Below are positions 1 to 56,856 of a stretch of 64,000 nt of DNA, piece after piece. The position numbers and the translations under genes are program-made. A model generated the notes under the pieces. The model saw only the letters and a list, made by a program, of their open reading frames with translations. It was not told the DNA's origin and ran no database searches. Location of the stretch: positions 248,001 through 312,000 of the forward strand of contig NZ_FOSR01000002.1 of NCBI RefSeq assembly GCF_900114325.1, in the 5' to 3' direction. Numbering within the stretch: the stretch's first letter is position 1; every line of letters begins with the position of its first letter. This stretch comes from Rhodanobacter glycinis. Lineage in GTDB: Bacteria > Pseudomonadota > Gammaproteobacteria > Xanthomonadales > Rhodanobacteraceae.

Positions 1-755
1 TGTTCCGGCCAGCGTGCAAGACGTTGCCGGGTGCGATCGAGTTTCGCCGTCTCTGCGGCCGTGGCCGTTTTCATGCTGGCGACCAGCGCCTTCACGCCTA
101 CATGACCGATACGCGCACTCGTCCACGCTTCGATACTGCTGCCGCCCCAGCTGCTGTTGACCAAACCTTGCGGCACATGGGTGCGCACCTGCATGTCGCG
201 TGCAAAGAACCAGCACACGGCGGAGAACTGGCCAACGGTCGACGGACTGGCCGCGACCCAGCTGCCGCCCTGCAGCCGTTTCAGCGGCGCGGTGGATGCG
301 GCGTGCGGAATCTTGAACTGGCGGATCGACGGATCGTTCGCCTTCGCTTCCTCGGCCGCGGCGTCGCGACCTTCGGAAACCATGAACTCCATGTTCGACT
401 GGCCCGAGCACAACCACACATCGCCGACCAGCACATCGCCGACCAGCACATCGCCGACGCGGCGATGCTGATACCCGTCGTCGACATCCAGTGCGTAGGG
501 GCCACCGGCCGGATGGGCCGGCAAGGTCGCATCCCAGCGTCCCTGCGCATCGGCGACCGCCACGACATGCCTGCCGTCGAAGCCCAGCTTCACCCGCGAC
601 CCCGGCGTGTCCCAGCCCCACACGCGCATCGGCTGGTCGCGCTGCAACACGGCGCCCGGCGAGAACAGTCGAGGCAATGTGAGCGTGGTGGCCTGCGTCG
701 CCAGCGGCAGCAGCGCGCCCAGGCTCAACGCGCCGGATAAAACGAGGCGCTTCAT
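1..755 (-). CDS. CE20-type sialate O-acetylesterase / xyloglucan acetylesterase, 3' part missing
   Basis: The first 251 codons are present; the C-terminus lies beyond the left window edge. The protein begins MKRLVLSGALSLGALLPLAT, a Sec signal peptide, followed by a beta-rich N-terminal domain. The SGNH/SASA signature LCSGQSNMEF lies at about residues 116-124, with catalytic Ser120 in GQSN, and SSWGGSSIEAW follows further on. Family knowledge: SASA/CE20 esterases remove acetyl groups from sugars, and a CE20 enzyme sits in the Xanthomonas xyloglucan locus. The start ATG overlaps the GH74 stop codon by four bases (ATGA), so the two are translationally coupled. A 15-base in-frame tandem repeat lies just before the catalytic motif. 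Xyloglucan specificity is inferred from context; a general sialate esterase is the alternative. Confidence 0.85.
   Translation of the reverse strand, partial: MKRLVLSGALSLGALLPLATQATTLTLPRLFSPGAVLQRDQPMRVWGWDTPGSRVKLGFDGRHVVAVADAQGRWDATLPAHPAGGPYALDVDDGYQHRRVGDVLVGDVLVGDVWLCSGQSNMEFMVSEGRDAAAEEAKANDPSIRQFKIPHAASTAPLKRLQGGSWVAASPSTVGQFSAVCWFFARDMQVRTHVPQGLVNSSWGGSSIEAWTSARIGHVGVKALVASMKTATAAETAKLDRTRQRLARWPE
417..458. repeat. 15-bp in-frame tandem repeat inside the esterase gene
   Basis: The unit CACATCGCCGACCAG occurs at 417-431 and 432-446, with a 12-base partial copy at 447-458. On the coding strand it gives GDVLV-GDVLV-GDVW directly before the GQSN motif. Related proteins usually have a single LVGDVW, so one unit is probably an extra copy. 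Confidence 0.85.
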
Positions 756-3001
756 GGTGCCGTTTCCATTGGTTCGCCATAGACAATGCCGCGCCCGCTG
801 GTGGCCAGATACACACGGCCGAACACGCGCGGGTCGCCGACAAGATGCGTAATGCGACCATAGCGATGCGCCGCATCATTGATGCGCTGCCAGTGGCCGC
901 CGTCATCGATGGAGCGGAAAATGCCCTGGTGTCCGTCAAGCCGGCCGGCCACGAACAAGGTCGACTCGTGCCGCCCTTGCGCAGGCTTGCCGAAACCGAA
1001 GGCATCCACACCGGTGAGGCCGGCAAAGCGTTGCTGCACGTTGCCGGCGTCATCGCCACGCAGCAACGGCAGATCACGCGCCGCGAGATAGAGCACGCCG
1101 GCCGCGTCCGGCACCGCCTGCAATTGCACGTGATCGTGGCCCTGCGCGGCTGCACCAAGGCGACCCCGAATCGGCCCGAATGTCACGCCGCCATCCTGGC
1201 TGGCAAACAATGCCCCGGTATGCGGATCGAACGCCGCAAGGCGCCGCGGATCGACGCGATCACCCACGACGACCACCGTGCCAGGCAGCCTCTGCACGGT
1301 CTGCCAGTGCCGGCCGAAATCGCGGGTGATATAGACGTGCCGCGCATGCCGCGGCGCCCACAGCACAGCGCTGCCATCGGCGGTGAGTGCAATGCTGCCG
1401 GCGCCGTCGCCGTCCGGCGGTTCGCTGGCGAAGGCCTGCCAGTGCCGGCCATCGTCATCGGACCAAGCCGCGCGCATGGCCGGCCCGAACGGTTCACGCA
1501 GGTAACCGCTGCGCACGATCAGTGTTGGACGCTGCCCCGCGTAGTCGATGCTTTCGCTGTTGGCATAGCGCGGCGGTGCCTGGAACTGCAACGGCGCCAC
1601 GGCAAGGTCGTCGTGCCGAAAACCGTCGAGATCGCCGATCGCGCTCAGCAAGTGCGCGCCCTGCGGCGGGCTGATCAGGCCCAGCGGCACGGTTTCCTCA
1701 AGCCCGCGATCCTGGAACCACCAGTGCACCTTGGCGCCAAGATCGAGCCGGCGCATGTCGCGCGAAGCCCAGATGCCGTAGCCGGTGACGAACATCACGT
1801 GGTCGGGATCGAATGGATCGATGGCCACGGTGGTCATCCAGTGCGGCGCATGCCCCACCGTCCATGCCGCACCGCTGTGATCGAACACCGAGTGCGCGAA
1901 GACCTCGGTCCAGTGCGCGCCGCGATCGGTACTGCGGAACAGCAGGTCGTGCGGCGTGTAGTGATGATGGGTGCTGGCGATCAACACCTTCGGATCGGAG
2001 GGGTCAACGGCCACATCGCCCCAGCCGAAGCCCGGCGGTTTGCCGTTGCCATGCAAGGGCGTGATGTCGGTCCAGTGGCCGCTGGACGACTGCCAGCGCC
2101 ACACGGCGCCGTCGTTCATGGTGTCCGGGCCTGGCTCGTCGCCATAGCTCAGGTAATAGTTGCCATCGGTGGCACGATGCATGTGGCTGGGCCGCAAGCC
2201 GACAGGCTGCCCCGGCACGGCGCTCCAGTGGCGCCCGCCGTCGACGGAACGGAACAGACTGGTCTGTCGGGTGGACACGCCGGCATAGAGCACCGGGGTC
2301 GGCGTACCGTGCCGGCCACTGGCCGGATCGAACACCACGAATACAATGCCGATGGGTTGCGTGCGCCACGTGTTACGCGCACTGGCCGACGACGAGGTTG
2401 CCACCGCCGGGAAGCTGTCGACCTTTGCCCAGTGCGCACCGTAATCATCGCTGCGCCACAGGCCGGCATCGGGTGAGCCAAGGAACAGAATGCGGCCATC
2501 GTTCGGATCGACCGCCAGGCGTTCGCCATTGCCACGCCCCAGCTCATTGCCGCCAAGCTTGAACGGCAGGTCAGTGCGCTCGAAATGACGTCCCTGGTCG
2601 TGCGAACGCAGGATCGCGGCATCGCCCGCCTGCGACGTGGTGTAGGTGCCCGCCGCCAGGTACAGGCGCTGCGGATCGGCGGGATCAAGTGCCAGGCTCT
2701 CGATACCCAGCAGATTCTCGTCCTTCGCCCCGATCCAGTCGGTCAGTGGTATCCAGCGCGCACGCGCCCGATCCCAGCGATACGCACCGCCCACGTCAGT
2801 GCGCGCATAGATCAGGCCGCGTACGGCAGGATGGAAGACCAGGCCACTGACATAGCCTCCGCCTTCGATACGCACGTTGCGCCAGCGATAGGACACACCA
2901 TGCGCCATGATTAAGGTCGTCGTGCATGCAAGCACGACGACCAGGAGAAACGTGCAACCGCCAAGCTTGGGGAGAGACCAGCGTCGCGTGAGTCGTTGCA
3001 T
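752..3001 (-). CDS. GH74 xyloglucan-specific endo-beta-1,4-glucanase
   Basis: A 749-residue secreted enzyme with an N-terminal hydrophobic signal segment (residues about 15-33). The GH74 hallmark YVSGLVFHP...LIYARTDVGGAYRWD starts near residue 50, and Asp69 corresponds to one of the two catalytic aspartates. The second region, AIGDLDGFRHDDL, places Asp457 as the likely partner. Several BNR/Asp-box style repeats (SDDYGAHW, SVDGGRHW, STDRGAHW, SDDDGRHW, SIDDGGHW) support a pair of seven-bladed propellers. GH74 enzymes cleave the beta-1,4-glucan backbone of xyloglucan outside the cell or in the periplasm. It lies 57 bases after the TBDT stop and overlaps the esterase start by four bases, so the three genes form an operon. 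No carbohydrate-binding module is visible. Confidence 0.93.
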   Translation of the reverse strand: MQRLTRRWSLPKLGGCTFLLVVVLACTTTLIMAHGVSYRWRNVRIEGGGYVSGLVFHPAVRGLIYARTDVGGAYRWDRARARWIPLTDWIGAKDENLLGIESLALDPADPQRLYLAAGTYTTSQAGDAAILRSHDQGRHFERTDLPFKLGGNELGRGNGERLAVDPNDGRILFLGSPDAGLWRSDDYGAHWAKVDSFPAVATSSSASARNTWRTQPIGIVFVVFDPASGRHGTPTPVLYAGVSTRQTSLFRSVDGGRHWSAVPGQPVGLRPSHMHRATDGNYYLSYGDEPGPDTMNDGAVWRWQSSSGHWTDITPLHGNGKPPGFGWGDVAVDPSDPKVLIASTHHHYTPHDLLFRSTDRGAHWTEVFAHSVFDHSGAAWTVGHAPHWMTTVAIDPFDPDHVMFVTGYGIWASRDMRRLDLGAKVHWWFQDRGLEETVPLGLISPPQGAHLLSAIGDLDGFRHDDLAVAPLQFQAPPRYANSESIDYAGQRPTLIVRSGYLREPFGPAMRAAWSDDDGRHWQAFASEPPDGDGAGSIALTADGSAVLWAPRHARHVYITRDFGRHWQTVQRLPGTVVVVGDRVDPRRLAAFDPHTGALFASQDGGVTFGPIRGRLGAAAQGHDHVQLQAVPDAAGVLYLAARDLPLLRGDDAGNVQQRFAGLTGVDAFGFGKPAQGRHESTLFVAGRLDGHQGIFRSIDDGGHWQRINDAAHRYGRITHLVGDPRVFGRVYLATSGRGIVYGEPMETAP

Positions 3002-3058: not shown

Positions 3059-5899
3059 TCAGAAGCTCAACTGGGCCTTCAGGCTGAGCATGCGGTCATT
3101 GATCTGCACGTCACGCGGAAGCGTGTCGAGGCCGAAGTTCGTGGCTCGCTTGGTGTTGGTCAGGTTCACCGCCGCCGCGGTCAGCGAGAAGTCGCGGGTG
3201 AAGTGATACGTCACCGACGCGTCCACCTGGCCGAAGGCCTTGTCGTAGATCGGCAGGCTACCGGTACCGTTGCCCTGGGTCGTTTCCACCCACTGGCTGC
3301 GCCAGTTGTAGGCGACGCGAGCCGAGATCGGCCCCTTCTCGTACATCAGGATCAGGTTGTAGCTGTTCTTCGACAGGCCTTCCAGCGGAACCAGCAGCGG
3401 ATTGCCCGACGTATCATAGGCGTCCGGACTTGGCGCCTTGCTGTACACGTAGGTGTAATTGGCCTGCACGCCCAATCCGTCGAAGGGCGACGGCAGGAAA
3501 TCGAAGAAGGTCTGGTAACCCGCTTCGGCACCCTTGATCACGCCGTTCTTGCCGTTCACCAGGCTGCTGATGGCGTAATTGTGGAGCACGCCGAGCTGGT
3601 CGATCTCGGGCTTTTCAAGCGTAACCGTCTGTACGAAACCGTCCACGCTCTTGTAGAACAGGCCGCCGTACAACAGTTGCGATGGCGACATGTACCATTC
3701 CAGCGAGGTGTCGTACTGTTTCGCCGTCATCGGCTTCAGATACGGGTTGCCACCCGCCGTGCCGGTGTAGGCATTGACGCCGGTGGTGGCATCCGGCGTA
3801 CTCAACTGCAACATCGGATTGAGCTGATCGAAAGTCGGCCGCGACAACGCTTTCGATGCGGCGAAGCGCCACTGCAGCTTGTCGGTCAGATGGAAAGTGA
3901 GGTTGAGGCTGGGCAGGAACGAGTTGTAGGACTGGCCCACGTTCAACGGCAAGGTTTCACCCAGCGAGTTCACCAGCGCACCGTCTGAACTGAGCTTGGT
4001 GTGGACGGCACGAATACCGATGTTGCCGTCGTACGGAATGCTGCCGATCTGGCTGCCGAACGTGATCAGGCCGTAGCCACCATAGGTGTTCTGGCCCTGG
4101 TTGTTGATGCCCGTGGCGGGATAGCTGAGCGGCGTGTTCTCGCCGAACATCGACAGCGAGTTGACGTAGTCGAACAGCAACGCGGGATTCGGCGTGATGG
4201 TGGAACCGAACGTGTCGGCATTGCCGTGGAAGAAGTCGCCGTACGTCTTGATCACCGCCGCCGACGCCGGATAATTGGAAAGCGGCTGGCCGATGTAGAC
4301 GAAGCGATAACCCGAATCCTCGGTCTCGGCGGTGCGATGGGTGGTGCGCACGCCGAACTTGATCGACTGGAAGAAATCGCCGCCCAGCGTGTACTCGCCA
4401 TCGGCCCGCCACGCGAATTCGCGCCCCGTGGCGTTGGTCTTGTCATCCAGCAGATAGCCGAACGTGTTGTTGGCCGGATTGGTTGTGTAGGCCGTGTCCA
4501 CTTTCAGCACCGGCAGGCTGCCGCTGATGTCCTGATAGAGATACGGCGTCGTGCTGCTGGTATTGAGGATGTAGCGAAAGGTGTTGGTCTTCGCCGTGAT
4601 GTACTGGAAATCGGTCTTCAGCGTGAGGTTGTTGGTCGCGTTCCACGAAGCACCCCAGGTGTAGTCCGTGGTGATCGAGTGCCGCGTGGTCAGGCTGCTG
4701 TTGGAGGCGACGGGAATCCCTGCCGTGGTCACTCCGTTCGGATCGGGATTGCCATCGGCACCCAGTGTGCCCGTGCCATCAAACGTGCCACTGAGGAAGT
4801 TGCCGCTGGGACCGAACGCGTACGGCTTGCTCGTATCCAGGACGATCGGCGTGGTGCCGGTATAGGCAAAATACGAGTAGTCGTTCCACTGGAAGTGGTA
4901 GTCCGAGCGTACCGCCTGCGCGTACAGCTGCAGGTCATTGTTGGGGCGCCACTGCAACGCGATGACGCTGCCCATGCGACGACGTTCACCCACGGTCTCA
5001 CCGACGCCGCCGCCATGCGGAACCTCGAGCGTCTGACCGGCGTAGTTCGGATAATTGGCATACGCGCCGCCGGAACCCGCCTGTATGGCATAGAAAGGTT
5101 CGGTCGAGATGACGTCCTGACGGAATGCGTGCTTCTGATAGGCCAGGTCCACCAGCAAGCCGAATTCACCGGCGCTGGTATGCCAGCGGTTGCTGTACAG
5201 CACCGAGGCGGAAGGCTTGTTTTTCTTGGCCAGGTCGGCGTAATCGTCCTCGGCACTGATCGCGAATTTCTGCCCCTTGAAATCGAATGGCATGTGCGTG
5301 CGCAGGTTGACCGTGCCACCGATGCCACCTTCGATCATCTCCGCCGAAGGGTTCTTGTACACGTCGATGCCGGCCAGCAATTCGGCGGGCACGTCCTCGA
5401 AGCTCAGTGTGTCGCCGCCGTTGGCGGTAAAGCTGTCGCCGCCATTGATTTCGGTGCGCACCTGGGTCAGGCCGCGAATGGCGATGCTGCTGCCCTCGCC
5501 GTAGTTACGATCGATCTGGACGCCGGAAATGCGTTGCAATGCCTCGGCCACGTTGTTGTCAGGCAACTTGCCGATGTCTTCGGCCACGACCGAATCCACG
5601 ATCTGGTCGGCGTTCTCCTTCCGCGATATCGCCGACTCCATACTCGCGCGTACGCCGATGACCTGCACCGCAGCCATCTCGGTGGGTTTCTGCTTGTCGT
5701 GCTTGCTCTTGCCGGTCGCCGGGGTCGCATTGGTTTGCGCGGTACCGCCAGTCGCCGCCGTCGTGTCATCTTGAGTCGTGGTGCTTTGCTGCGCATGCGC
5801 AACCGCCGGCCCATACATCAACACCAGGCCCAGTGCGATCGCGGCAGACAAGCGCGCCAGCGGCCGGCCCGCAGTCTTTTCGTGCAATCGTTCGATCAT
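3059..5899 (-). CDS. TonB-dependent receptor 1 of the xyloglucan-type locus
   Basis: The 946-residue product begins at the ATG at 5899, preceded by GGGGGAGAG; the open frame extends 39 codons further but without a better ribosome site. A signal peptide ends near AHA (residues 34-36). The plug follows (VQVIGVRASMESAISRKENADQIVDSVVAEDIGKLPDNNVAEAL in outline, then GVQIDRNYG, IRGL, GGIGGTVNLRT). The rest is an outer-membrane barrel ending in LKAQLSF with a terminal Phe. It fits the large Xanthomonas/Caulobacter class of carbohydrate TBDTs. It would import xyloglucan oligosaccharides using TonB energy. It is the first gene of the operon with GH74 and the esterase. Its signal-peptide region is nearly identical in pattern to that of the TBDT at 8110-11088, which suggests duplication. 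Confidence 0.93.
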   Translation of the reverse strand: MIERLHEKTAGRPLARLSAAIALGLVLMYGPAVAHAQQSTTTQDDTTAATGGTAQTNATPATGKSKHDKQKPTEMAAVQVIGVRASMESAISRKENADQIVDSVVAEDIGKLPDNNVAEALQRISGVQIDRNYGEGSSIAIRGLTQVRTEINGGDSFTANGGDTLSFEDVPAELLAGIDVYKNPSAEMIEGGIGGTVNLRTHMPFDFKGQKFAISAEDDYADLAKKNKPSASVLYSNRWHTSAGEFGLLVDLAYQKHAFRQDVISTEPFYAIQAGSGGAYANYPNYAGQTLEVPHGGGVGETVGERRRMGSVIALQWRPNNDLQLYAQAVRSDYHFQWNDYSYFAYTGTTPIVLDTSKPYAFGPSGNFLSGTFDGTGTLGADGNPDPNGVTTAGIPVASNSSLTTRHSITTDYTWGASWNATNNLTLKTDFQYITAKTNTFRYILNTSSTTPYLYQDISGSLPVLKVDTAYTTNPANNTFGYLLDDKTNATGREFAWRADGEYTLGGDFFQSIKFGVRTTHRTAETEDSGYRFVYIGQPLSNYPASAAVIKTYGDFFHGNADTFGSTITPNPALLFDYVNSLSMFGENTPLSYPATGINNQGQNTYGGYGLITFGSQIGSIPYDGNIGIRAVHTKLSSDGALVNSLGETLPLNVGQSYNSFLPSLNLTFHLTDKLQWRFAASKALSRPTFDQLNPMLQLSTPDATTGVNAYTGTAGGNPYLKPMTAKQYDTSLEWYMSPSQLLYGGLFYKSVDGFVQTVTLEKPEIDQLGVLHNYAISSLVNGKNGVIKGAEAGYQTFFDFLPSPFDGLGVQANYTYVYSKAPSPDAYDTSGNPLLVPLEGLSKNSYNLILMYEKGPISARVAYNWRSQWVETTQGNGTGSLPIYDKAFGQVDASVTYHFTRDFSLTAAAVNLTNTKRATNFGLDTLPRDVQINDRMLSLKAQLSF

Positions 5900-6067
5900 G
5901 GTTCTCTCCCCCACATCGTCAGTTCGCGGACCTGGGTACATTCCCGGCCCTGTTGTCAGATTGGATTCCCGGCTTCGTGGCTGCCGTGGCGGTAACCGTG
6001 CCTTCGTTCCGTTCATGCCTTCCCCACGCGGGGATCAATGCATGCTGAAGCGATGCGAGTGGAATGC

Positions 6068-6155
6068 ACAATTACGAAATCGAGTGTGGCCGGTAACGTT
6101 TATTCATATGCGTTCGCCACATCATCCCCGGAAAGATGTACGGGCCTGCTAGATT
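6068..6155. promoter_or_regulatory. divergent promoter/operator element, copy 1
   Basis: This is the core of the 310-base gap between the TBDT (leftward) and the GH29 gene (rightward). It contains ACAATTACGAAA, then after a fixed spacer GGTAACGTTTATTCATATGCG. The same pattern with no gaps occurs at 11248-11335. For the leftward gene, TTACCG (6096-6091) and TAATTG (6074-6069), 16 bases apart, could be -35/-10 boxes. GGTAACGTTTAT resembles a LacI-family half-palindrome overlapping the -35. TAGATT at 6150-6155 may be the rightward -10; copy 2 has TAGTTT at exactly the same offset. Box assignments are inference. Confidence 0.6.
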
Positions 6156-6209
6156 TTCCATGCCTCGTCGCATGCCGCGCCAGGCCGATTCCAACAGCCC
6201 GGGGGGCGA

Positions 6210-7868
6210 ATGCAAACCCAGTCCTTTCCTTGCCCACGGCTGGTTCGCCATGGCCTGTTCGCCTGCATGGCCCTGTCGCTATACGCGCCCCTCGCCCAGG
6301 CGAACAAGGCCTCCGCACCCACCGCATCGACGCTGACTCAGGAACAGGCCGACCTGCGCTGGCAACAGGCAATGCGACGTTTCGACCCGGCGCGGCACGC
6401 CATGCTCGATACGGTGGCGCAGGGTGCTGCACAGGGACCGTTCCACCCGGACTGGGCCTCGCTGCGCGCCTATCGTGCGCCGGCATGGTTTGCGAACGCC
6501 AAGTTCGGCATCTTCGTGCATTGGGGCGTCTACTCGGTACCGGCGTTTGCCAACGAATGGTATCCACGCAACATGTACGACCAGCGCACGCGCGAATATG
6601 CGCACCAGGTCGCCACGCACGGCTCGCTGGCCCATTTCGGCTACAAGGACTACATCCCGCTGTTCAAGGCCGAGCATTGGGATCCTGCCCGCTGGGCGGC
6701 GCTGTTCCGTGCGGCGGGCGCACGCTATGTGGTGGGCGTGGCCGAACACTCCGACGGCTTCGCCATGTACAACTCGAAACTGTCCGACTGGACCTCGGTG
6801 AAGATGGGGCCGCACCGCGACGTGATCGGTGAGCTGGGCAAGGCCGTGCATGCCGATGGCCTGCGCTTCGGCGTTTCCTCGCACACCGCCGAGAACGACT
6901 GGTTCTTCCACCATGGCCGGGAAATCGACTCGGACGTCAACGACCCGCGTTACGCCGGCCTCTATGGCCCGGCTGTTGCCCAGTTGCCGGGCCCGCATGA
7001 CCCGGCCGACCAGGACCTGGCCGACGACTGGACTTACGTCTCGCAAGCCTGGGTGAACGACTGGCTGGCACGCACTGCCGAACTGGAGAAGTACTACCAC
7101 CCCGACCTGATCTACCTCGACTGGTGGGTCGGCCAGCCCGCCTTCCGGCTGGCACTGCCCAAGCTGCTCGCCTACTACTACAACGACGGCGCGCGTCGCG
7201 GTGGCGTGGTGCTCACCTACAAGCTCAAGGCGCTGGCTGATGGCAGCGCCACCCTGGACGTGGAACGCGGCCAGCTCGGCGCGATCCGCGCACAACCGTG
7301 GCAGACCGATACCACGATCAGTCGCAGTTCGTGGGGCTACGTGAAACACGACAGCTACCGAGGCGCCAACGAGATCCTGCAACTGCTCGCCGACGTGGTC
7401 AGCAAGAACGGCAACCTGCTGCTGGACATCGGCCCGCGTCCGGACGGCACCATCGTGCAGCAGGAACAGGACGTGCTGCGCCAGATCGGCGCATGGCTGC
7501 ACGTGAATGGGGCGGCCATCTACGGCAGTCGGCCGTGGCGCGTTTTCGGTGATGGTCCCACCACGCAAGCTGCCGGCGCGTTTCAGGAAAAGCAGGCCAA
7601 GCCCTACACGTGGCGAGACTTCCGCTTCACGCGGAACCACGGGCATGTGTATGCGATCGAACTCGGCTGGCCGAATGGCGGCACCGTCACCATCGGCGCA
7701 ATCAAACCGGCCGATGGCGTGCGCAACGTGCGCCTGCTCGGCTCCAGCGAGCCGGTCAATTGGCAGAGCTCGCCAAAGGGTTTGGTCATCCATCCCGGCA
7801 AGCGCCCGTCCGGGCCAGCCACCTATGTCTACGAGATCGATCTCGCGAGCGCCGGCACCAACCACTGA
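6210..7868 (+). CDS. GH29 alpha-L-fucosidase
   Basis: A 552-residue secreted enzyme with a signal peptide ending near LAQA (about residue 31). GH29 motifs are clear: WFANAKFGIFVHWGVYSVPAF near residues 90-110, a strand RYVVGVAEHSDGFAMY in place of the usual KHHDGF, GVSSHTAENDWFF, and YLDWW with Asp304 as the expected nucleophile. SKNGNLLLDIGPRPDG is the typical end of the catalytic barrel, followed by a small C-terminal beta domain. The reaction is hydrolysis of terminal alpha-L-fucose, such as on fucosylated galactosyl side chains of xyloglucan. GGGGGG precedes the start by a few bases. It is divergent from the TBDT operon and shares its control region. The Xanthomonas locus uses a GH95 fucosidase, so GH29 here would be a different enzyme for the same role. 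Confidence 0.93.
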   Translation: MQTQSFPCPRLVRHGLFACMALSLYAPLAQANKASAPTASTLTQEQADLRWQQAMRRFDPARHAMLDTVAQGAAQGPFHPDWASLRAYRAPAWFANAKFGIFVHWGVYSVPAFANEWYPRNMYDQRTREYAHQVATHGSLAHFGYKDYIPLFKAEHWDPARWAALFRAAGARYVVGVAEHSDGFAMYNSKLSDWTSVKMGPHRDVIGELGKAVHADGLRFGVSSHTAENDWFFHHGREIDSDVNDPRYAGLYGPAVAQLPGPHDPADQDLADDWTYVSQAWVNDWLARTAELEKYYHPDLIYLDWWVGQPAFRLALPKLLAYYYNDGARRGGVVLTYKLKALADGSATLDVERGQLGAIRAQPWQTDTTISRSSWGYVKHDSYRGANEILQLLADVVSKNGNLLLDIGPRPDGTIVQQEQDVLRQIGAWLHVNGAAIYGSRPWRVFGDGPTTQAAGAFQEKQAKPYTWRDFRFTRNHGHVYAIELGWPNGGTVTIGAIKPADGVRNVRLLGSSEPVNWQSSPKGLVIHPGKRPSGPATYVYEIDLASAGTNH

Positions 7869-8039
7869 AATCTTGCGCCGACCCGGCGGTGCCCCGGGCG
7901 TCCGCTACAAGCGAATTCCACACACACCGTCGCCTGCATCGGGGCACGTGATCCCGTTCGTCGATGTCGCCCGGCAACCGCCTCCGTTCCGTCCGATCCG
8001 CGCGCCGAAACCGGATCGACCGTGACGAGGCTTTCGTGC

Positions 8040-8075
8040 GGAGGCAGGGCAGCCAGCGCTGGCCACCCTGCCTCC
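8040..8075. terminator. hairpin between convergent GH29 and TBDT 2
   Basis: Arms GGAGGCAGGG (8040-8049) and CCCTGCCTCC (8066-8075) are perfectly complementary and enclose the palindrome GCCAGCGCTGGC. It lies between two convergent genes and has no clear U-tract, so it may act as a bidirectional terminator or 3' stabilising structure. Confidence 0.6.
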
Positions 8076-8109
8076 TGCCAGAATCCACCCGATGCTTCAG
8101 GCGTCGCGA

Positions 8110-11088
8110 TCAGAACGTCGCGCGCAGCGTCAACGCATAACGGGTGTCGTTCACGTACCACGAAGTGATGTGCTTGCCGGCTCCATTCTGATACATGATC
8201 GTGCGCTGCTCGGCATTGTTGATGTTGTTCATCTCCAGGCCGAGCTTCAAGTGTCTGTTGAACGCGTAGAAGATCGAGCCGTCCAGTTGTCCGTAGGCAT
8301 CGGCGAACACCGGCAGCTTCCACGGAATGTTGTTGTCGGTGCCGTTGTAGCCATTCGGACCGATCGACAGCAGATACTGGCTGCGCCAGTTGTAGGCCAA
8401 CCGGATCTGCCACGGACCGTGCTCGTAGAAGCCGGCGACATTGAGAGAATCCCGCGACAAGCCATCCGCCGGGAGGCTGCCGTAACCCGAGCCATCCGTG
8501 TCCAGCGGCACCGCAGTCGTGTCGTTCGGCACATGGGTCCTGCTGCGGATGTAGGTGTAGTTCGCCGACATGCCGAAACCCTTGACTGGCAGGAAGTCGA
8601 AGAACTGGTTCCAGCCGATTTCCGCGCCATTGATCGTCGCCTTGCCGACGTTCACCGGACGGGTAATCAGATACTGGTAATTGTTGCCGTCGATGCCTGG
8701 ATACGTCACGAACTCCGACTCGTTGCGGAAATAATTGCTTAGCGACTTGCGAAACAGGTTGACCCAAGCCATGCCGCCGCGGTCCTGATCGAAGTACCAC
8801 TCCAGCGACAGATCGAACTGGTTGGCCTTCATCGGCGTCAGGTACGGGTTGCTGGTGGACGTGCCAGTCAGAGTCAGCTTGTCGATCGGCAGGACGGTGG
8901 TGCCGGCCGGCGGCGTATAGCCTGACACCACGCCGGCATTGAGAATCTGATAGGCCTGCATCTGGCTGAAGTCCGGCCGCGCGATCGCCTTGGAAAAGGC
9001 AAAGCGCGCGAGCAGGTTCGGCGCGAACTCCCACTTCACGTTGAAGCTGGGCAGGACGTCGGTGTACTCGTTGCGGGCACTGATGGGAGTAGACTGACCC
9101 GTGCCCAGATAGGGCGCCAACGCCTGGTTGGGATACACCAGGAAGCCTTGGCCGGCATTTCTGGTCTTCACCGCACGCACGCCGATGTTGCCGCTCAGAT
9201 GGGCATCGTCCACCCCGAAGTCGAGCATGGCGTACACCGCGTAGGTCTTCTCGTGCTGGATGTTGGTGTGCGCGGCATCGAGCAGCGTGGGCTGGTACGG
9301 GGCGTCGTAGCCGTTGCCGGGGATGTAATACGGAATGGCGGCGTTGTGGATGTCCGCGTAGCTGCCCGGATAGCCCAGCGCGGTCGACGGCACCGGTGCA
9401 TAGAACGCACCTGGTACGCCGGCGTCACCCTTGTAGAAATTCTTGAACGTGTCCAGGTGCACCAGGCTGCTATTGATCGTGCCGTTCAAGTCCAGCCCGG
9501 GCAAAGCGCCGCTGGGCAGTGCCCAGCCTTGCATCCAGGTCTGGAACACGGGCACCCAGTTGTAGCCGGTATCGATGTTGTCGGCATAGCGATTGGTCAG
9601 GCGCACGCCAGCCCTCACCCCTTGCACGAACCCATCGGCGAAGGTGTGATCAATGTCGGCACGCCAGGCCAGTTCTCTCGCATAGTTCTGATCCTGGTGA
9701 TCCTGGGTGAACCCCCAGTAGTAATTGGCGGGGTTCCCGGTGAAGTCGGAATCGACGCCGAGGTGTGGCGGGCTGCTGCCGTTCAGGGCGACGTCGATGT
9801 AGGGCACGTTGGTACCCAGGGCCACCGTGGAATCCAGACTGTTGGTGGTGGCCTTGACGAACTGCACCGCGCTCGTGATCTCGGTGCTCGTGCCCAGCCG
9901 CCACTTCATCCCGGTGGAGAAATCGGTGGTCTTGGAGTGGCTGTTGGAGGCGCGGATGTCGGTGCCCATCGGCATGCCGCCGCTCTGCGTGAGGCGACCG
10001 GACTGGAACACCCCGCCGTTGACGACGCTCGGCTGGCTGGCATCCACCATCACCTGCGTCGGGTCGTTGCTCACGAAGATCGCATCCTCGTTCCAGACCT
10101 CGTGGTATTTGCTCTGGAACGCGGTGGCGTGAAAATCAAGATTGTCGCTGGGACGCCACTGAAAGGCCAGGTAGGTGCCATCACGCTTGCGATCGTAAAG
10201 CAAGGTGCGCCAGTCGGCGCCGCGCGGCACCCACGTGCCACTGGCGTTCTTGAAGAACGGACGCACAAACAGGCCATCGGTGCGCGTGGACAGTTGGGAA
10301 TCGGCGACATCGACGAGGAAACCCATCTCGCCGAGACGGGTGTGCCAGCGATTGCTGTAGAGCACCGAGCCGGACGGCTTGTACTTCTTGACGAAGTTGC
10401 CGTAGTTCTCGCTGACGGAAGCGGCGATCTTCTGGCCCTGGAAGTCGAACGGCATGAAGGTGCGCAGGTTCACCGTGCCGCCCAGGCCGCCCTCGATCAT
10501 GTCGGCCGTCTGGTTCTTGTAGACATCGATGCCAGACATCAATTCCGGCGGCACGTCCTGGAAGCTTAGCGCGCGCCCACCGTTGGCGGAGAAACTGTCC
10601 CCCCCATTCAATTCGGAACGCACCTGCGTGAGGCCGCGCACCTGCACGCCATTGCCTTCGGCAGAGAAGTGTTCCGGATCCCCCTGGGAGAGGAAATGGT
10701 CGATGGTGACGCCGGGAATGCGCGCCAGGGTATCAGTGACGCTGCGATCGGGCAGCGCACCGATATCCGTGGCGGATACCGAATCGACGAAAGTATCCGC
10801 GTAGCGCTTGACGTCCTGCGCCTGCTCGACTGATGCACGAATACCGGTCACGACAACGGCCTGGAGGTTCTTGACCTCCTTGGCATCGGCTTTTGCACGC
10901 TTTTTTTTGGCAGCCTTGGCGGCTGGCTGGCCCTGGTCTTGTGCTGCCGGCGTTGACGACACCGGACCCGCATGGGCAACCAGAGGGGCATAGAGCAACA
11001 GGCCCATGGCAATCGCAGCGGACAAGCGCGCCAGCGGCAGCGCTCGACCCGCCGAACTACATCCAGCCTGAAGGGTGGTCTCAGTCAT
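8110..11088 (-). CDS. TonB-dependent receptor 2 of the xyloglucan-type locus
   Basis: A 992-residue outer-membrane receptor. The ATG at 11088 has GGGGAGAG upstream and is preferred over one 18 codons earlier. The signal peptide ends at AHA (residues 38-40). Next come a Lys/Ala-rich linker and a TonB-box-like region, LQAVVVTGIRAS. The plug follows with IGALPDRSVTDTLARIPGV, VRGL, GGDSFSANGGRALSF and GGLGGTVNLRT, then a long barrel ending ALTLRATF. It is a paralogue of the receptor at 3059-5899, sharing the plug phrases RGLTQVR, NGGDSF and DVYKN. It stands alone on its strand, divergent from the two GH43 genes. It probably imports a second class of oligosaccharide from the same polymer. Confidence 0.92.
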   Translation of the reverse strand: MTETTLQAGCSSAGRALPLARLSAAIAMGLLLYAPLVAHAGPVSSTPAAQDQGQPAAKAAKKKRAKADAKEVKNLQAVVVTGIRASVEQAQDVKRYADTFVDSVSATDIGALPDRSVTDTLARIPGVTIDHFLSQGDPEHFSAEGNGVQVRGLTQVRSELNGGDSFSANGGRALSFQDVPPELMSGIDVYKNQTADMIEGGLGGTVNLRTFMPFDFQGQKIAASVSENYGNFVKKYKPSGSVLYSNRWHTRLGEMGFLVDVADSQLSTRTDGLFVRPFFKNASGTWVPRGADWRTLLYDRKRDGTYLAFQWRPSDNLDFHATAFQSKYHEVWNEDAIFVSNDPTQVMVDASQPSVVNGGVFQSGRLTQSGGMPMGTDIRASNSHSKTTDFSTGMKWRLGTSTEITSAVQFVKATTNSLDSTVALGTNVPYIDVALNGSSPPHLGVDSDFTGNPANYYWGFTQDHQDQNYARELAWRADIDHTFADGFVQGVRAGVRLTNRYADNIDTGYNWVPVFQTWMQGWALPSGALPGLDLNGTINSSLVHLDTFKNFYKGDAGVPGAFYAPVPSTALGYPGSYADIHNAAIPYYIPGNGYDAPYQPTLLDAAHTNIQHEKTYAVYAMLDFGVDDAHLSGNIGVRAVKTRNAGQGFLVYPNQALAPYLGTGQSTPISARNEYTDVLPSFNVKWEFAPNLLARFAFSKAIARPDFSQMQAYQILNAGVVSGYTPPAGTTVLPIDKLTLTGTSTSNPYLTPMKANQFDLSLEWYFDQDRGGMAWVNLFRKSLSNYFRNESEFVTYPGIDGNNYQYLITRPVNVGKATINGAEIGWNQFFDFLPVKGFGMSANYTYIRSRTHVPNDTTAVPLDTDGSGYGSLPADGLSRDSLNVAGFYEHGPWQIRLAYNWRSQYLLSIGPNGYNGTDNNIPWKLPVFADAYGQLDGSIFYAFNRHLKLGLEMNNINNAEQRTIMYQNGAGKHITSWYVNDTRYALTLRATF

Positions 11089-11247
11089 GATCAAAGCTCT
11101 CCCCGGAAATGATGGTCGATCGCCGGCAAGGCTTGTCGGCAACCCTGGTTCTTCCGCGCCTCCCCATTCCAGGCAGCGGTGTATGGCGATTCGTGGCCAA
11201 GTGCCCTTTTCGCAGGTCTGGATGTTGGGGCGCAGCGCTACGAACTG

Positions 11248-11335
11248 ACAATTACGAAAACAAGGGCGCCGGGTAATGTTTATTCATTTGCGAACGCGTC
11301 ATGACCGCTGCACGGTGCCAACCGACTGGTAGTTT
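11248..11335. promoter_or_regulatory. divergent promoter/operator element, copy 2
   Basis: Core of the 303-base gap between TBDT 2 (leftward) and the GH43 pair (rightward). ACAATTACGAAA, a fixed spacer, and GGTAATGTTTATTCATTTGCG match copy 1 at 6068 with identical spacing. The leftward -35/-10 candidates are TTACCC and TAATTG, 16 bases apart. TAGTTT (11330-11335) sits where copy 1 has TAGATT. The same regulator probably controls both divergent pairs. Confidence 0.6.
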
Positions 11336-11391: not shown

Positions 11392-13077
11392 ATGCCATCG
11401 CTGTGGAGTAAGGATGTGAAACGCTGCCTGCTCGCGCTGATCTGCCTGCTGCTGGTTCCCGTCGCGCAAGCGGGAAGCGCGCTGTTCACCCGCATCCACT
11501 ACCAGGGCGCCGACGGTGGCCCCACGCCCACGACATCGCAATACCGCAATCCGATACTGGCAGGCTTTTATCCCGATCCATCGATCATCCGTGTCGGCGA
11601 CGATTTCTACCTGGTCAATTCCAGCTTCGGTTATTTCCCCGGCCTGCCCGTATTCCACAGCCGCGACCTGGTCGACTGGACGCAGATCGGCAACGCCATC
11701 GACCGCCCCGGCCAAATCGACTACGGCCGACACGAGCTGACCCGCGGCCTGTTCGCGGCCTCGATCAGCTACCACGGTGGCACGTTTTACATCACCAACA
11801 CCTGCTTCTACTGCGACGGCGGCAACTACGTCATCACCGCGAAGAATCCGGCCGGGCCATGGTCGAATCCGGTGTGGTTCGGCATTGAGGGGATCGATCC
11901 TTCGCTGTTCTTCGACAGCGACGGCAAGGCGTGGCTGGTCAACAACGGCATGCCCGTGGGCAAACCTCGCTACGAAGGCCATCGGGCGATCTGGATCCAG
12001 CAGTTCGACCCGACGTCGATGAAGCTGGTCGGTCCGCGCAAGGTGATCGTGGATGGCGGCACCGATCCTTCCGCCGATCCGCAATACGTGGAAGGCCCGC
12101 ACCTGTTCCGGCGCGGCAGCTGGTATTACCTCATCGCAGCCCAGGGCGGCACCGGCGAGCAGCATGCGGAGATGGTCTGGCGCAGCCATCATGTGACCGG
12201 TCCTTATATGGCATGGTCAGGCAACCCGGTGCTGACCCAGCGTGATCTCGATCCGGCGCGCGCCCATCCCGTCACGTCGGCAGGCCATGCACAATTCGTC
12301 GAGTTGAAGGATGGCTCGTGGTGGTCGGTGTTCCTGGCCACGCGGCCTTACCGCGGCAACCAGTACAACCTTGGCCGCGAAACCTTCCTGCTACCGGTGC
12401 ACTGGCACGATGACTGGCCGCAAGTGCTTCCCCACGACACGCCGGTGCCGTTGGTCGCCACGCGTCCGCCGCTTCCGCGCACCGCCTCTACGCAACCGAC
12501 GACGGGCCCGTTCGGCTGGACCGAACACTTCCATGGCCCCGGCTTGCCACTGGCATGGATGACCATCAACGTGCCGCGCACGCACTGGTACGCCACCGGT
12601 TCGAAGGGACTGCGAATCACTCCTTCGGCAACCCCACTGGGTGACTATGCCAACGGCCAGCCGGCCTATGTCGCGCATCGGCTGCAACACCGTGTCGCCT
12701 CGCTGGAAGCCACACTCGACGCCGCTCTGCTGGCACCGAACGAACAGGCCGGCCTGGCACTGTTCCAGAACGAAACCCACTTCTATGCGGCGATGCGGGT
12801 GCATGACCACTCCGGCAACGCCGTGGTGCTTTACCGCCGCACCAGCAAGGACGAACCCGCTGCCGGCACGCCAATCGCACGCGTGGCACTGGGCAAAACG
12901 ACACAGCCACTTCGGCTGCGCTTCCAGCTTGACGGCGCGCGGCTGGACGCGTGGTACGCGCAAGGCTCCGGAGCGTGGCAACCGCTGGCGCGAAACCTGG
13001 ATGCCAGCGTACTCAGCACCGCCACAGCCGGCGGCTTTACCGGCGTGACCTTCGGCCCGTATGCCTACCGGAAATAG
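11392..13077 (+). CDS. GH43 glycosidase (arabinofuranosidase/xylosidase-type), secreted
   Basis: A 561-residue protein beginning at the ATG at 11392, with GGGAG a few bases upstream; an in-frame GTG 17 codons earlier lacks support. A signal peptide ends near AQA. The five-bladed propeller carries the three GH43 acidic residues: Asp62 in FYPDPSII (base), Asp169 in GIDPSLFF (pKa modulator) and Glu234 in VEGPHLF (acid). A C-terminal beta-sandwich (about residue 380 onward, FHGPGLPLAWMTIN...) is typical of the two-domain GH43 subfamilies. It would release arabinofuranose or xylose from hemicellulose side chains. It is divergent from TBDT 2 and is followed after 77 bases by a second GH43 gene. Exact substrate is not readable from sequence. 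Confidence 0.9.
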   Translation: MPSLWSKDVKRCLLALICLLLVPVAQAGSALFTRIHYQGADGGPTPTTSQYRNPILAGFYPDPSIIRVGDDFYLVNSSFGYFPGLPVFHSRDLVDWTQIGNAIDRPGQIDYGRHELTRGLFAASISYHGGTFYITNTCFYCDGGNYVITAKNPAGPWSNPVWFGIEGIDPSLFFDSDGKAWLVNNGMPVGKPRYEGHRAIWIQQFDPTSMKLVGPRKVIVDGGTDPSADPQYVEGPHLFRRGSWYYLIAAQGGTGEQHAEMVWRSHHVTGPYMAWSGNPVLTQRDLDPARAHPVTSAGHAQFVELKDGSWWSVFLATRPYRGNQYNLGRETFLLPVHWHDDWPQVLPHDTPVPLVATRPPLPRTASTQPTTGPFGWTEHFHGPGLPLAWMTINVPRTHWYATGSKGLRITPSATPLGDYANGQPAYVAHRLQHRVASLEATLDAALLAPNEQAGLALFQNETHFYAAMRVHDHSGNAVVLYRRTSKDEPAAGTPIARVALGKTTQPLRLRFQLDGARLDAWYAQGSGAWQPLARNLDASVLSTATAGGFTGVTFGPYAYRK

Positions 13078-13154
13078 CCAAACTGGCTGCGACGCCAGCC
13101 CATGCAATCCGTCAAGTACGCACGGCTTCAAAACGTTCATCGGGAAAACCAATC

Positions 13155-14786
13155 ATGCCTGACTTGGGCCGCAGAGACCTTTTCAAAGCCCTGGCAACAG
13201 GAGCCATTGCCATCCCCCTCGCCCGAACGATCCACTCCGACCCGGTCCGTCCATGTGTCGGTCCCGAGCCGCACTGGGCCAAGGGCATCGAGGATCAACG
13301 CAAGGCCGACCTTGGCGACGGCACCTACATCAATCCCGTTGTTGCCGGCGATCATCCCGACCCCACCGTGCTCAAGGACGGCGACGACTACTACATGACG
13401 TTTTCGCCATTCTTCGCCTCGCCCGGACTCGTCATCTGGCATTCGACCGACCTGGTCAACTGGGCGCCGATCGGCACCGCACTGCACAAGCCGATGGGCA
13501 CGGTATGGGCTGTCGACCTGTGCAAATACAAGAACCGCTACTACATCTACCTGCCAGCCCAGCAAGCCGGCGGGGACTGGTCGATCCACGTCATCTGGGC
13601 CGACGATATCCGCGGCCCATGGAGCGAACCGGTCGATCTCGATATCGCCGGCTGCATCGATCCGGGACACGTGGTCGGTGAAGACGGCCGACGCTACCTG
13701 TTCGTCAACGGCATTCGAATGATCCGCCTGACCGACGATGGCCTGGCTACCGACGGCCCGCTGCAACACGCCTATACGCCATGGCAATACCCGAAGGACT
13801 GGATTGTCGAGGACTTCGCCCCGGAAGGCCCCAAACTGCTGCGACGCGCTGACTGGTTCTACCTGGTCAGCGCCGTGGGCGGCACGGCGGGTCCGCCGAC
13901 GGGGCACATGGTCATCGTGGCCCGCTCGAAGTCGGTACACGGTCCGTGGGAAAACTGTCCGCACAATCCCATCGTGCGCACCCGGTCGGCCGCCGAACCG
14001 TGGTGGTCGCGTGGCCACGCCACCCTGGTCGAAGGACCAGCCGGGGACTGGTGGATGATCTATCACGGCTACGAGAACGGCTTCAGGACACTGGGCCGCC
14101 AAACCTTGCTGGAACCGATGGCGTGGACTGCAGATGGTTGGCCACGCGCCACCGGAAGCGATTTGTCCCGCCCGCTTCGCAAGCCCGCGGGCGGCTCGGC
14201 AAGTGCGGATGGCATGGCGCTTTCGGACGATTTTTCCAGCAACCGGTTCGGCACCCTGTGGTCCTTCCACCGTCCGCGACCATATGAAATGCAGCGGGCC
14301 AGATATACGGGCAAGGCACTGGAGTTCCGCGGGTTCGGCAGCTCACCAGCGGACAGTGCGCCGCTGGTATGCAGCGTGGGCGACCGCGCCTACGTGGCGG
14401 AAATCACCTTCGAACTGTCCGGCGATGCGGAAGGTGGCCTGCTGCTTTTCTACAACCACAAGGCTTTCGTGGGTGTCGGCTTCACGCCGGACACGATCAA
14501 GACCTTCGAATACGCGCAGGAACTGGACTGGGCTCGCATCGCGAAGAAAAGCCGGCATGTGCGCGTGCGGGTCACCAACGACCATAACGTGGTGACCTAT
14601 GCGTACTCGCACGACGACGGCCGCAGCTGGCAACTGCATACCATCCGCATGGAGGTATCCGGCATCCACCACAACGTGTTCGGCGATTTCCTGTGCCTCA
14701 AGCTGGGCATCTACAGCGCCGGCAGCGGAACGTTGCGACTGAGCGATTTCCGCTATCACGCCATCGCGGGCAACCCGCTGATCTGA
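13155..14786 (+). CDS. GH43 glycosidase with twin-arginine-like leader
   Basis: A 543-residue protein from the ATG at 13155. The N-terminus MPDLGRRDLFKALATGAIAIP has a twin-arginine motif followed by a hydrophobic stretch, so Tat export is likely, unlike its neighbour. GH43 acids are Asp69 (HPDPTVL), Asp169 (CIDPGHV) and Glu224 (APEGPKL). A C-terminal beta-sandwich (about residue 355 onward) contains FSSNRFGTLWSFH and ends with SGTLRLSDFRY. The sequence is quite different from the upstream GH43 gene, so the two are probably complementary activities on arabinose- or xylose-substituted side chains. It is co-transcribed with the upstream gene. The ribosome site is weak (GGGAAAA). Confidence 0.9.
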   Translation: MPDLGRRDLFKALATGAIAIPLARTIHSDPVRPCVGPEPHWAKGIEDQRKADLGDGTYINPVVAGDHPDPTVLKDGDDYYMTFSPFFASPGLVIWHSTDLVNWAPIGTALHKPMGTVWAVDLCKYKNRYYIYLPAQQAGGDWSIHVIWADDIRGPWSEPVDLDIAGCIDPGHVVGEDGRRYLFVNGIRMIRLTDDGLATDGPLQHAYTPWQYPKDWIVEDFAPEGPKLLRRADWFYLVSAVGGTAGPPTGHMVIVARSKSVHGPWENCPHNPIVRTRSAAEPWWSRGHATLVEGPAGDWWMIYHGYENGFRTLGRQTLLEPMAWTADGWPRATGSDLSRPLRKPAGGSASADGMALSDDFSSNRFGTLWSFHRPRPYEMQRARYTGKALEFRGFGSSPADSAPLVCSVGDRAYVAEITFELSGDAEGGLLLFYNHKAFVGVGFTPDTIKTFEYAQELDWARIAKKSRHVRVRVTNDHNVVTYAYSHDDGRSWQLHTIRMEVSGIHHNVFGDFLCLKLGIYSAGSGTLRLSDFRYHAIAGNPLI

Positions 14787-52072: not shown

Positions 52073-52276
52073 GGCAGGGCGTCTGATGGCCAGCGCCCAT
52101 CGTAACGGACTGGCCATGATGAGTCTGTGCTTCACGGTATCGAAGCACCGGCTTCAAACAGACCGTGCATGTGAGGCGTCTCCCGCAGGAAGGAAAAACG
52201 TCCGCGCCAGGCGCAATCCACTTCCGCCCCGAACATTCCCCGATCGGCACGATGGCAAAATGGTATAAATCAATCA

Positions 52277-52306
52277 TTGACCTTTTAACTGGTAGCATGC
52301 TACCAA
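52277..52306 (+). promoter_or_regulatory. promoter with perfect 16-bp palindromic operator
   Basis: TGGTAGCATGCTACCA (52290-52305) is a perfect palindrome. TTGACC (52277-52282) is a good -35, and 17-18 bases on the CTACCA/TACCAA box may be the -10, so a bound repressor would block polymerase. It lies 40 bases before the receptor start and is the best regulatory site in the window. The regulator could be the RpiR-type protein at the operon's end or a GntR/LacI-type protein elsewhere; this is inference. The remainder of 52073-52344 holds no gene. Confidence 0.65.
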
Positions 52307-52344
52307 TACAGGTACGGGCTATCCGTTTCTCGTGGGGGAGCGTC

Positions 52345-54660
52345 ATGGACATGTATCTATCGCCGTATGCACGTCGCTATATCTGCCTGGCCGTTGCCGT
52401 GGCCATGGCCTGTCCGCTGGGACTAATGGCCAAGGACAGCGGTCAGGAACAAACGGTTCCACCGATGGCTAGCAAGACCGACACGCAGGCACGTGGCCAT
52501 ATTCCTGCCACCGCCAAAACCGAGGCCACCCAAAGGGAAGTGACGCGGCTCAGCACCATCATCGTGACGGCCGACAAGCGCAGCGAGCCGTTGCAGTACG
52601 TCCCCATGGCCGTGTCGGTGCTGACGCAGGATCAGCTTTCCCGCCAGAGCGCCACCAGCTTTGCCGACTACGTGGCCCAGGTTCCTGGCCTGAACGCCAT
52701 CTCCTCGGGCGAGGGCTGGACCCAGCTGGTCCTTCGCGGCATCACCTCGGGAAGCCACCAGCCCAACGCGACCGTGGGCACATACATCGACGACACACCG
52801 TACGGTTCCAGCACCATTTACGCGGCCGGCAGCATGCTGACGCCGGACATCGATCCCAGCGACGTGCAGCGCATCGAAGTGCTGCACGGACCGCAAGGCA
52901 CGCTCTATGGATCAAACACGCTGGGCGGCCTGATCAAGTTCGTCACGACACCCCCGGATACGACTCAGGCCAGCGCGCATGCCGATGTCGACGTCAACAG
53001 CGTGTCCGGCGGCGGCAGCGGTTTTGGCTCGCATGCGATGGTGAACATCCCGCTGGTGGCCGACACGCTCGGTTTGCGCGTCAACACGTATGCCCGCACC
53101 GATCCGGGTTACATCGACAACGTCAGCACCGGCCAATCGGAAGTGAACAAGGCCGAGGTTCGCGGAGGGCGCGCGCAAGTGCTGTGGACTCCTAACGACA
53201 AGGTCTCGGTACGCTTCTCGGCGCTGGCGCAGAACCTGAGCAGCAATGGCGTGGCCAATGGTGGCATCGACCTCGATCCGGCCACGCTGCAGCCGGTCTA
53301 CGGCTGGAACAAGCAGGCGCGCGCCGCCGGCACCGGCCTGTTCAAGGTGAAGTACCGCCTCTACGACTTGTCGGTCAAGGCCGACTTCGGCTGGGCCAAG
53401 CTGGTTTCCACTAGCAGTTACGGCACCTTGCGACTGAATGAAAACGTCGACAACACTGCTCTTTACGGCCCGCTGCTGAACCCGATGTTTGGCCTGTCAA
53501 ACGGCGGTTATGCGGAAGTCCAGCCGATTGCGCTGAACAAGGTCACGCAGGAACTCCGCCTGCAGTCGCCCGAAGACCAGACCTGGGAATGGCGCACCGG
53601 CCTGTTCTTCACCCACGAACGCACCGTGGACCAACAGGACATGGCGACCTTCGACGCCACTACCGGGACGCCGATCGCCTTGCCGACCATCGCTCATGTC
53701 TCCGTGGGACCGGCACTGTTCACGGAATGGGCCGGCTATGGCGACCTGACCTGGCACCCCACGTCCAAGCTGAGCGTGCTGGTCGGCGCCCGTTACAGCA
53801 ACGACCGCACCACGTATTCGCAAACCAGCACGGGTCTGCTCATCGGCGACACGGACTTCACTTCGCGCAGCAGCGATCACCCGGTCACTTATCTCGTCAA
53901 TCCCAGCTACAAGTTCACCGACAACGTCATGGCTTATGTGCGCGTGGCCTCCGGCTTCCGCCCCGGCGGCGCCAACGTCGGTGTCTCGCCCGGATTGGGT
54001 GCACCACTGACCTTTGAGCCGGACAAGCTGGTCAACTACGAACTCGGCTTGAAGACGATGATGCTCGACGGGCGCATGAGCCTCGACGTTGATGCCTTCT
54101 ACATCGACTGGTCCAAGGTTCAGCTGACGTCCGTCGTCGGCGGCATCGGCTTCCTCAGCAACGGCGGCAAGGCTATCAGCCAAGGCTTCGAGGCAAGCTG
54201 GCGGCTTCATCCGCTGCGTGGCCTCACTCTGTGGTCAAACGCCTCCTACACGGACGCCAGCCTCGCCAAGGACAATCCGACAGGCAGTGTTTACGGCCTC
54301 AAGGGCAATCCCCTGCCGTACGTGCCGAAGTGGAGTGCCAACCTGGGTGCCGACTACAACTTCCCGATGGGCAGTTGGTCCGGCTTCGTGGGCGGCAACT
54401 TCAGCTACGTCGGCCGGCGCGCCGGGGAGTTCAACCAGATTCCCGCACCGCGCGTCTACCTGCCTGCCTACAACAATATCGATCTGTATGCGGGCGTGAA
54501 TCTCGGCGACTGGAGCGTCAAGGTCTACGCCAAGAACCTGGCCAACCGGCACGGCATCACCTCGGTATGGCCGGAGACGCTGAACCCCGTGGGCAGCCCG
54601 TTCAATGCCACGGTGCAAACGCCGCGCACGGTCGGTGTGACAGTCAGCGTCGATTTCTGA
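52345..54660 (+). CDS. TonB-dependent receptor of the peptide operon
   Basis: A 771-residue outer-membrane receptor. The start is at the ATG at 52345 with GGGGGAG just upstream; a second ATG two codons on is also possible. The signal peptide ends near LMA. The TonB-box region LSTIIVTADKRSEPLQYVPMAVSVLT and plug (SFADYVAQVPGLN, LRGITSG, IEVLHGPQGTLYGSNTLGGLIKFVT) are classical. The barrel ends with VGVTVSVDF and terminal Phe. It is shorter and of a different subclass from the two carbohydrate TBDTs in region 1. Downstream genes point to peptides or muropeptides as the ligand. Confidence 0.93.
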   Translation: MDMYLSPYARRYICLAVAVAMACPLGLMAKDSGQEQTVPPMASKTDTQARGHIPATAKTEATQREVTRLSTIIVTADKRSEPLQYVPMAVSVLTQDQLSRQSATSFADYVAQVPGLNAISSGEGWTQLVLRGITSGSHQPNATVGTYIDDTPYGSSTIYAAGSMLTPDIDPSDVQRIEVLHGPQGTLYGSNTLGGLIKFVTTPPDTTQASAHADVDVNSVSGGGSGFGSHAMVNIPLVADTLGLRVNTYARTDPGYIDNVSTGQSEVNKAEVRGGRAQVLWTPNDKVSVRFSALAQNLSSNGVANGGIDLDPATLQPVYGWNKQARAAGTGLFKVKYRLYDLSVKADFGWAKLVSTSSYGTLRLNENVDNTALYGPLLNPMFGLSNGGYAEVQPIALNKVTQELRLQSPEDQTWEWRTGLFFTHERTVDQQDMATFDATTGTPIALPTIAHVSVGPALFTEWAGYGDLTWHPTSKLSVLVGARYSNDRTTYSQTSTGLLIGDTDFTSRSSDHPVTYLVNPSYKFTDNVMAYVRVASGFRPGGANVGVSPGLGAPLTFEPDKLVNYELGLKTMMLDGRMSLDVDAFYIDWSKVQLTSVVGGIGFLSNGGKAISQGFEASWRLHPLRGLTLWSNASYTDASLAKDNPTGSVYGLKGNPLPYVPKWSANLGADYNFPMGSWSGFVGGNFSYVGRRAGEFNQIPAPRVYLPAYNNIDLYAGVNLGDWSVKVYAKNLANRHGITSVWPETLNPVGSPFNATVQTPRTVGVTVSVDF

Positions 54661-56850: not shown

Positions 56851-56856
56851 CAAGGA

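Follow-up and report, generated by a model that had tools for sequence, protein, structure and literature searches.

The window, by which we mean the whole 64,000-nucleotide stretch of the Rhodanobacter glycinis genome analysed here, carries two genes for TonB-dependent receptors on the minus strand, TBDT1 (3059–5899) and TBDT2 (8110–11088). The order along the window is a GH74 endo-xyloglucanase homologue (752–3001, minus strand), TBDT1, a first predicted operator (site 1), a GH29 alpha-L-fucosidase (6210–7868, plus strand), TBDT2, a second predicted operator (site 2), two GH43 genes and a GH92 gene. The GH43 genes are both on the plus strand: GH43a spans 11392–13077, its start taken as the ATG at 11392, and GH43b spans 12951–14786, its true start probably lying later than that of the open reading frame. 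Upstream, in a stretch designated L008, follow in order an MFS sugar transporter, a xylose-isomerase-like protein, an FGGY kinase, a XylR-type regulator, a GDSL esterase, GH31, GH3 and GH35; an acetylesterase-like gene extends from L008 into the window. The regulator gene (C14:237314–238453, with an ATG at 237278; G000:C14:237278) begins 16.8 kb before site 1, and by Pfam its neighbours are a xylose-isomerase-like TIM barrel (xylA-like) and an FGGY kinase (xylB-like); relatives show a comparable neighbourhood. An open reading frame between xylB and xylR (L008 about 7980–9095, minus strand) resembles, by eye, an enolase-superfamily sugar-acid dehydratase.

Comparison with solved structures places these genes in a recognisable pathway. 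The best match of GH74 is 7kn8 (E 2.2e-248; other xyloglucanases also match), that of the esterase is 7kmm and that of GH31 is 7kmp, while for GH35 the structure 7kmn ranks third; all four were deposited with a paper on xyloglucan utilisation in Xanthomonas (PMC8245568). On the strength of these four matches the predicted gene products identify a xyloglucan utilisation locus of the Xanthomonas kind: GH74, GH31, GH35, an acetylesterase and a TonB-dependent receptor are all present and are linked to genes of xylose catabolism. GH29 is present, and no GH95 fucosidase was found among the 46 open reading frames scanned with Pfam (36 of the window's 122 listed frames and 10 of L008). Elsewhere in the window, a receptor, a beta-lactamase-fold protein, an enolase-type protein, a POT/MFS transporter and an RpiR-type regulator stand in a row (52165–60087) and, by gene content alone, look like a cluster for recycling murein peptides or peptides; a TOTE-type primase/helicase protein (AEP-TOTE, E 1.1e-100) lies at 60501–62867.

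The two intergenic elements share a 45-bp composite motif, at 6068–6112 and 11248–11292, which a scan of the window found ungapped at both. The joint pattern ACAATTACGAAA-N12-GGTAAyGTTTATTCATwTGCG fits both elements with no mismatch and has exactly two matches in the window, against a mean of 0.00 in 100 shuffles. A TAGATT or TAGTTT box, one per element, starts 82 bases from the start of the motif. A preliminary description had reported just such a shared motif, with a fixed spacer and a TAGwTT box at equal offset, and all of these are where it had placed them. The alignment and genome search that it had proposed gave the joint motif exactly at both sites and the right half at no third place: with up to three mismatches, this 21-bp half occurs only twice in the 3.87-Mb genome, in the two elements themselves.

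A profile (R1) was built from eight sites in four genomes of the genus. It has 56 matches in total, and an alignment was made of the 45 distinct sites that scored at least 20 and had enough flank, leaving aside weaker matches, those too near the ends of loci and those in loci that were not fetched. Judged from this alignment, the family consensus is about ACAATTrCGAAATyr-N~10-TrAyGTTTmTTCATnTGCGnTyGCCrCAt. Columns 1–55 of the profile define the predicted operators on the plus strand, site 1 at 6068–6122 between TBDT1 and GH29, and site 2 at 11248–11302 between TBDT2 and GH43a. The conserved block extends from a leftward −10-like ATGCTG (CAGCAT on the minus strand) to column 55, and many positions between and beyond the promoter-like elements are invariant across the 45 sites. 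The best match on the left-hand side is most often a TonB-dependent receptor (33 sites; GH5 2, GH74 2, xylA 2, GH29 1, none 5), and on the right-hand side GH29 (12 sites; xylR 3, xylB 2, GH43a 1, none 27). In G130 and G079 the operator stands upstream of a GH5 gene (L086:10077–11291 and L094:10060–11274) outside the xyloglucan stretch, and this gene is likely a further member of the regulon.

Which regulator reads these sites? Two genomes of the genus, G004 and G014, carry beside the motif an open reading frame that is a nearly full-length homologue of E. coli XylR (E 3e-112 to the E. coli XylR structures 4fe4/4fe7). It combines in one chain a LacI-like sugar sensor (PBP1_XylR and Peripla_BP_3) and an AraC-type DNA-binding domain (HTH_18), and the R. 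glycinis copy has the same domains. Searched as a plain pattern, the motif turned up in 4 of 15 genomes of the genus, each with XylR; profile R1 matches six of the 15, the same six that hold XylR, although its training sites came from four of these and only G001 and G007 are new finds. Among 197 genomes of the family, the motif is present in 36 of the 62 with XylR and in 2 of the 135 without it (36 have both, 2 the motif alone, 26 XylR alone and 133 neither; Fisher p = 3e-20, a value that overstates the evidence because the genomes are related). The two genomes with the motif only, G017 and G157, are drafts with no match to XylR. Fourteen of the 26 genomes with XylR and no R1 match were fetched: five have a diverged site beside a TonB-dependent receptor (scores 41–68, against a maximum of −21 on 13 reversed sequences), in eight the stretch shows neither a xyloglucan receptor nor GH74, and one (L112) has a partial receptor and no site. 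Conservation in related genomes, whose absence was to have counted against the preliminary description, is seen, the motif being present in 38 of the 197 genomes (R. glycinis included), and its proposal of a single regulator for both promoters is borne out, in that the motif is conserved in relatives and tracks one regulator.

The nature of that regulator is a different matter. The preliminary description had suggested a LacI-type regulator. A repressor of this type could bind the AACGTT core, a sequence that in site 1 does look palindromic, and a LacI-type "XylR" repressor is known in Xanthomonas (from a title in the reference list of PMC8245568). Yet in 17 of the 45 sites, site 2 included, T replaces C at column 30 and breaks the palindrome with its central CG; no LacI-type helix-turn-helix was found among the 46 frames scanned with Pfam in the window (36) and L008 (10); and the motif is linked to a XylR whose only DNA-binding domain is of AraC type (HTH_18/HTH_AraC). 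On these three grounds we rejected a LacI-type operator, which we consider very unlikely. Both elements are, with high probability on the available sequences, operators of the homologue of the E. coli XylR activator.

Since XylR and the motif occur in one locus, and the genomes are related, co-occurrence by itself is weak evidence; the argument for XylR is therefore carried by sites at xylR and xylA promoters in other genomes. Thirty-seven xylR loci were assigned to the Burkholderiales by record title, and 33 of them have an exact CAATTrCGAAAT (operator half A) within 350 bp upstream of xylR; of the four that do not, two have less than 350 bp of upstream sequence to examine. In 32 of the 37 the right half also follows at the proper distance, giving an A-N-B core. 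Of the other 43 named loci, 21 have an exact half A at that distance from xylR and 2 have the A-N-B core. Exact half A occurs 75 times in the 80 loci (1.55 Mb) and not once in the reversed-string control. Among relatives' loci that lack the full motif, AATTGCGA is kept in all ten xylA–xylR regions examined, and the eight such regions that were aligned all have the same layout; L092 and L093 have a full site between xylA and xylR. R. glycinis itself has, outside the window and upstream of its own xylR (L008:9150–9204), a third operator-like site, weaker than the other two and of the short xyl type; its score is 3.5, the highest on 13 reversed sequences being −21.1, and TGGTAGCTT lies downstream of it. 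The operator is, then, shared with xylR/xylA promoters, as its core in 32 of the 37 Burkholderiales loci and in full in L092/L093, with a weak site at the R. glycinis xylR. XylR is therefore the likely ligand of the motif.

The short and long forms of the site allow a further, tentative reading, which we regard as possible but rather doubtful: that XylR of this family reads operators of two grammars, at xyl genes a short form consisting of half A and a TTTTTC/GCGTCAT arm, and at xyloglucan receptor promoters an extended form of 55 bp, which would add a third element, TGCGnTyGCCrCAt. If so, one protein would set one sugar threshold for the breakdown of pentoses and another for the capture of polymer. 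The last ten columns of site 2 (AACGCGTCAT) deviate from the family consensus. The site ends in GCGTCAT (11296–11302), which is absent from the other 44 aligned sites and is elsewhere a feature of short xyl-type sites; site 2 may be a hybrid, with the long right half and the GCGTCAT end.

Promoter-like elements flank and overlap both operators. Across the 45 sites, the ACAATT end carries on its minus strand TTGTSN, taken as a −35 that lies 17–18 bases from the leftward −10. At site 1 the predicted leftward −35 (TTGTGC, 6066–6071, minus strand) overlaps half A of the operator and is followed after an 18-bp spacer by a predicted −10 (CAGCAT, 6042–6047, minus strand); the equivalents at site 2 are TTGTCA (11246–11251) and CAACAT (11222–11227), again on the minus strand with an 18-bp spacer. 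In the other direction, predicted extended −10 elements lie on the plus strand at 6147–6155 (TGCTAGATT, which contains the TAGwTT box of the preliminary description) and at 11327–11335 (TGGTAGTTT). When the leftward −10 was scored strictly, in fixed columns, it showed no association with a leftward gene (24 sites with the element and 14 without where a left gene is present, against 4 and 3 where there is none; p = 1.0), a failure due at least partly to a spacer that varies by one base. A looser pattern, chosen post hoc, matches 35 of the 40 sites that have a leftward gene and none of the four that lack one; these four form two pairs of close relatives, and a further site was set aside because its left gene is unknown. 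The rightward pattern TGnTAnnnT, chosen after the sites had been seen, occurs at 14 of the 18 sites that have a recognised gene to the right and at none of the 26 that lack one (one of the 45 had too little flank and was dropped); the four misses are L039 (GH29), L099 (xylR), and L047 and L090 (xylB). Because the rightward −10 tracks the presence of a rightward gene, the TAGwTT box is most likely the extended −10 of that gene and lies outside the operator.

That −35 and −10-like elements belong to the conserved block would also be expected of a strong constitutive promoter pair with no specific regulator. We consider such an arrangement extremely unlikely: the invariant positions in the 45 sites exceed the needs of a sigma-70 promoter, and XylR is present in 36 of the 38 genomes that have the motif. 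AraC-type activators commonly act from a site overlapping the −35. The two elements are best read as XylR operators set within promoters.

How did one genome come to have two such promoters? The preliminary description pointed to paralogous receptors, alike down to the signal-peptide pattern, and to duplication of a receptor-plus-promoter unit with different enzymes attached. The receptors are indeed paralogous, but TBDT1 and TBDT2 are only 37% identical, and the signal-peptide pattern is not specific to them, being found in members (not every member) of all three groups in a tree of 30 receptors beside sites and one very distant outgroup. T1, which includes TBDT1, and T3 are each one supported group; T2, which includes TBDT2, is one group in 60% of bootstrap trees, and the best starred set containing T2 also includes the outgroup. 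TBDT1 clusters with receptors from G188, G073 and G098, which belong to other genera (support 100/100). Its nearest neighbour in the tree is a receptor of G188 and that of TBDT2 a receptor of G102, both outside the genus. Five other genomes of the genus have the motif; the receptor next to or near their GH74 belongs to T2 (G004, G005 and G014) or to T3 (G001 and G007). Strong relatives of TBDT1 (E ≤ 1e-250) occur in 4 of the 197 genomes, R. glycinis included, and in all four a profile match adjoins the gene. T1 and T2 members in other genera have operator copies of their own.

Because these separate groups have their own operators, two old receptor lineages each carry the same switch, and TBDT1 may have been acquired together with its operator. 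A recent duplication within this genome, with different enzymes fitted later, would explain why the same operator adjoins both receptors and why both sites share a rare base. Column 35 (6102 and 11282) is A in both, where 41 of the 45 sites have C; the A (GTTTATTC) is found in four of the 45, the two R. glycinis sites among them, and also in the L115 site adjoining a TBDT1 relative, which is outside the 45. The shared A leaves room for local homogenisation of the operators. Duplication of the whole unit in this lineage is nevertheless disfavoured by the receptor tree, in which the two receptors fall with separate receptors of other genera that have operators of their own, and we regard a recent event of this kind as very unlikely.

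The comparisons establish that the sites are conserved and linked to XylR, that promoter-like elements are conserved with them, and which genes the locus contains. XylR binding and a xylose response at the two sites we infer, in the following course of events. The GH31 alpha-xylosidase would free xylose from xyloglucan oligosaccharides; xylose would bind XylR and turn it into an activator; and xylose-bound XylR would bind both sites and recruit RNA polymerase in both directions. Each site would lie within a bidirectional promoter, the left end of the operator overlapping the −35 of the leftward receptor promoter and the rightward extended −10 (TGnTAGnTT) driving the glycosidase gene, such that receptors and side-chain enzymes would rise along with xylose catabolism. 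For xyloglucan uptake in Rhodanobacter and related genera, the proposal supplies a testable regulator and an exact candidate operator. A classical xylose sensor of the cytoplasm would, on this view, govern polymer receptors in the outer membrane, and receptors of different lineages would have retained the same switch or come under it. Further xyloglucan genes can be sought with the operator profile, as with the GH5 gene mentioned above.

Two known systems invite comparison. In the Xanthomonas citri XyGUL (XAC1768–XAC1777), as described in the parts of PMC8245568 drawn on here, GH74, GH31, GH35, an acetylesterase and two TonB-dependent receptors stand, as they do in R. glycinis, beside genes for xylose isomerase, xylulokinase and an MFS transporter; xyloglucan oligosaccharides induce the Xanthomonas locus, and knock-outs of both its receptors are reported. 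The same account differs from the present locus in having a GH95 in place of a GH29 fucosidase, in that the receptors here have separate divergent promoters, and in naming no AraC-type XylR, for which there is a candidate here. The LacI-type XylR repressor of Xanthomonas, known to us from a title in its reference list, shares the name and the link to xylose but belongs to a different DNA-binding family; PMC10766802, in the portion available, likewise presents XylR as a repressor of the LacI family, with no mention of an AraC-type case at a xyloglucan locus. The titles and abstract openings retrieved in literature searches, among which subscription journals are thinly covered, contain no description of the 55-bp operator, and the accessible portion of PMC5952831 gives no operator. 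The second system is the E. coli XylR regulon (xylAB / xylFGHR), governed by an AraC-type activator with a LacI-like sensor; this XylR activates each of the two xyl operons, and the xylA promoter contains two sites for it (PMC8534289, in part). The regulator is homologous over nearly its full length, and the AATTGCGA-type half-sites of relatives, too, lie in xylA–xylR regions and upstream of xylR. Unlike those of E. coli, the sites described here stand at genes for outer-membrane receptors and xyloglucan glycosidases, and the conserved operator is longer (about 55 bp); the motif's highest-scoring window between E. coli xylA and xylF lies near xylA and scores −1.9, which is within the shuffle range (90th percentile −1.48). 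The kind of regulator is already known; the proposed target set is new, and the operator is an extended one.
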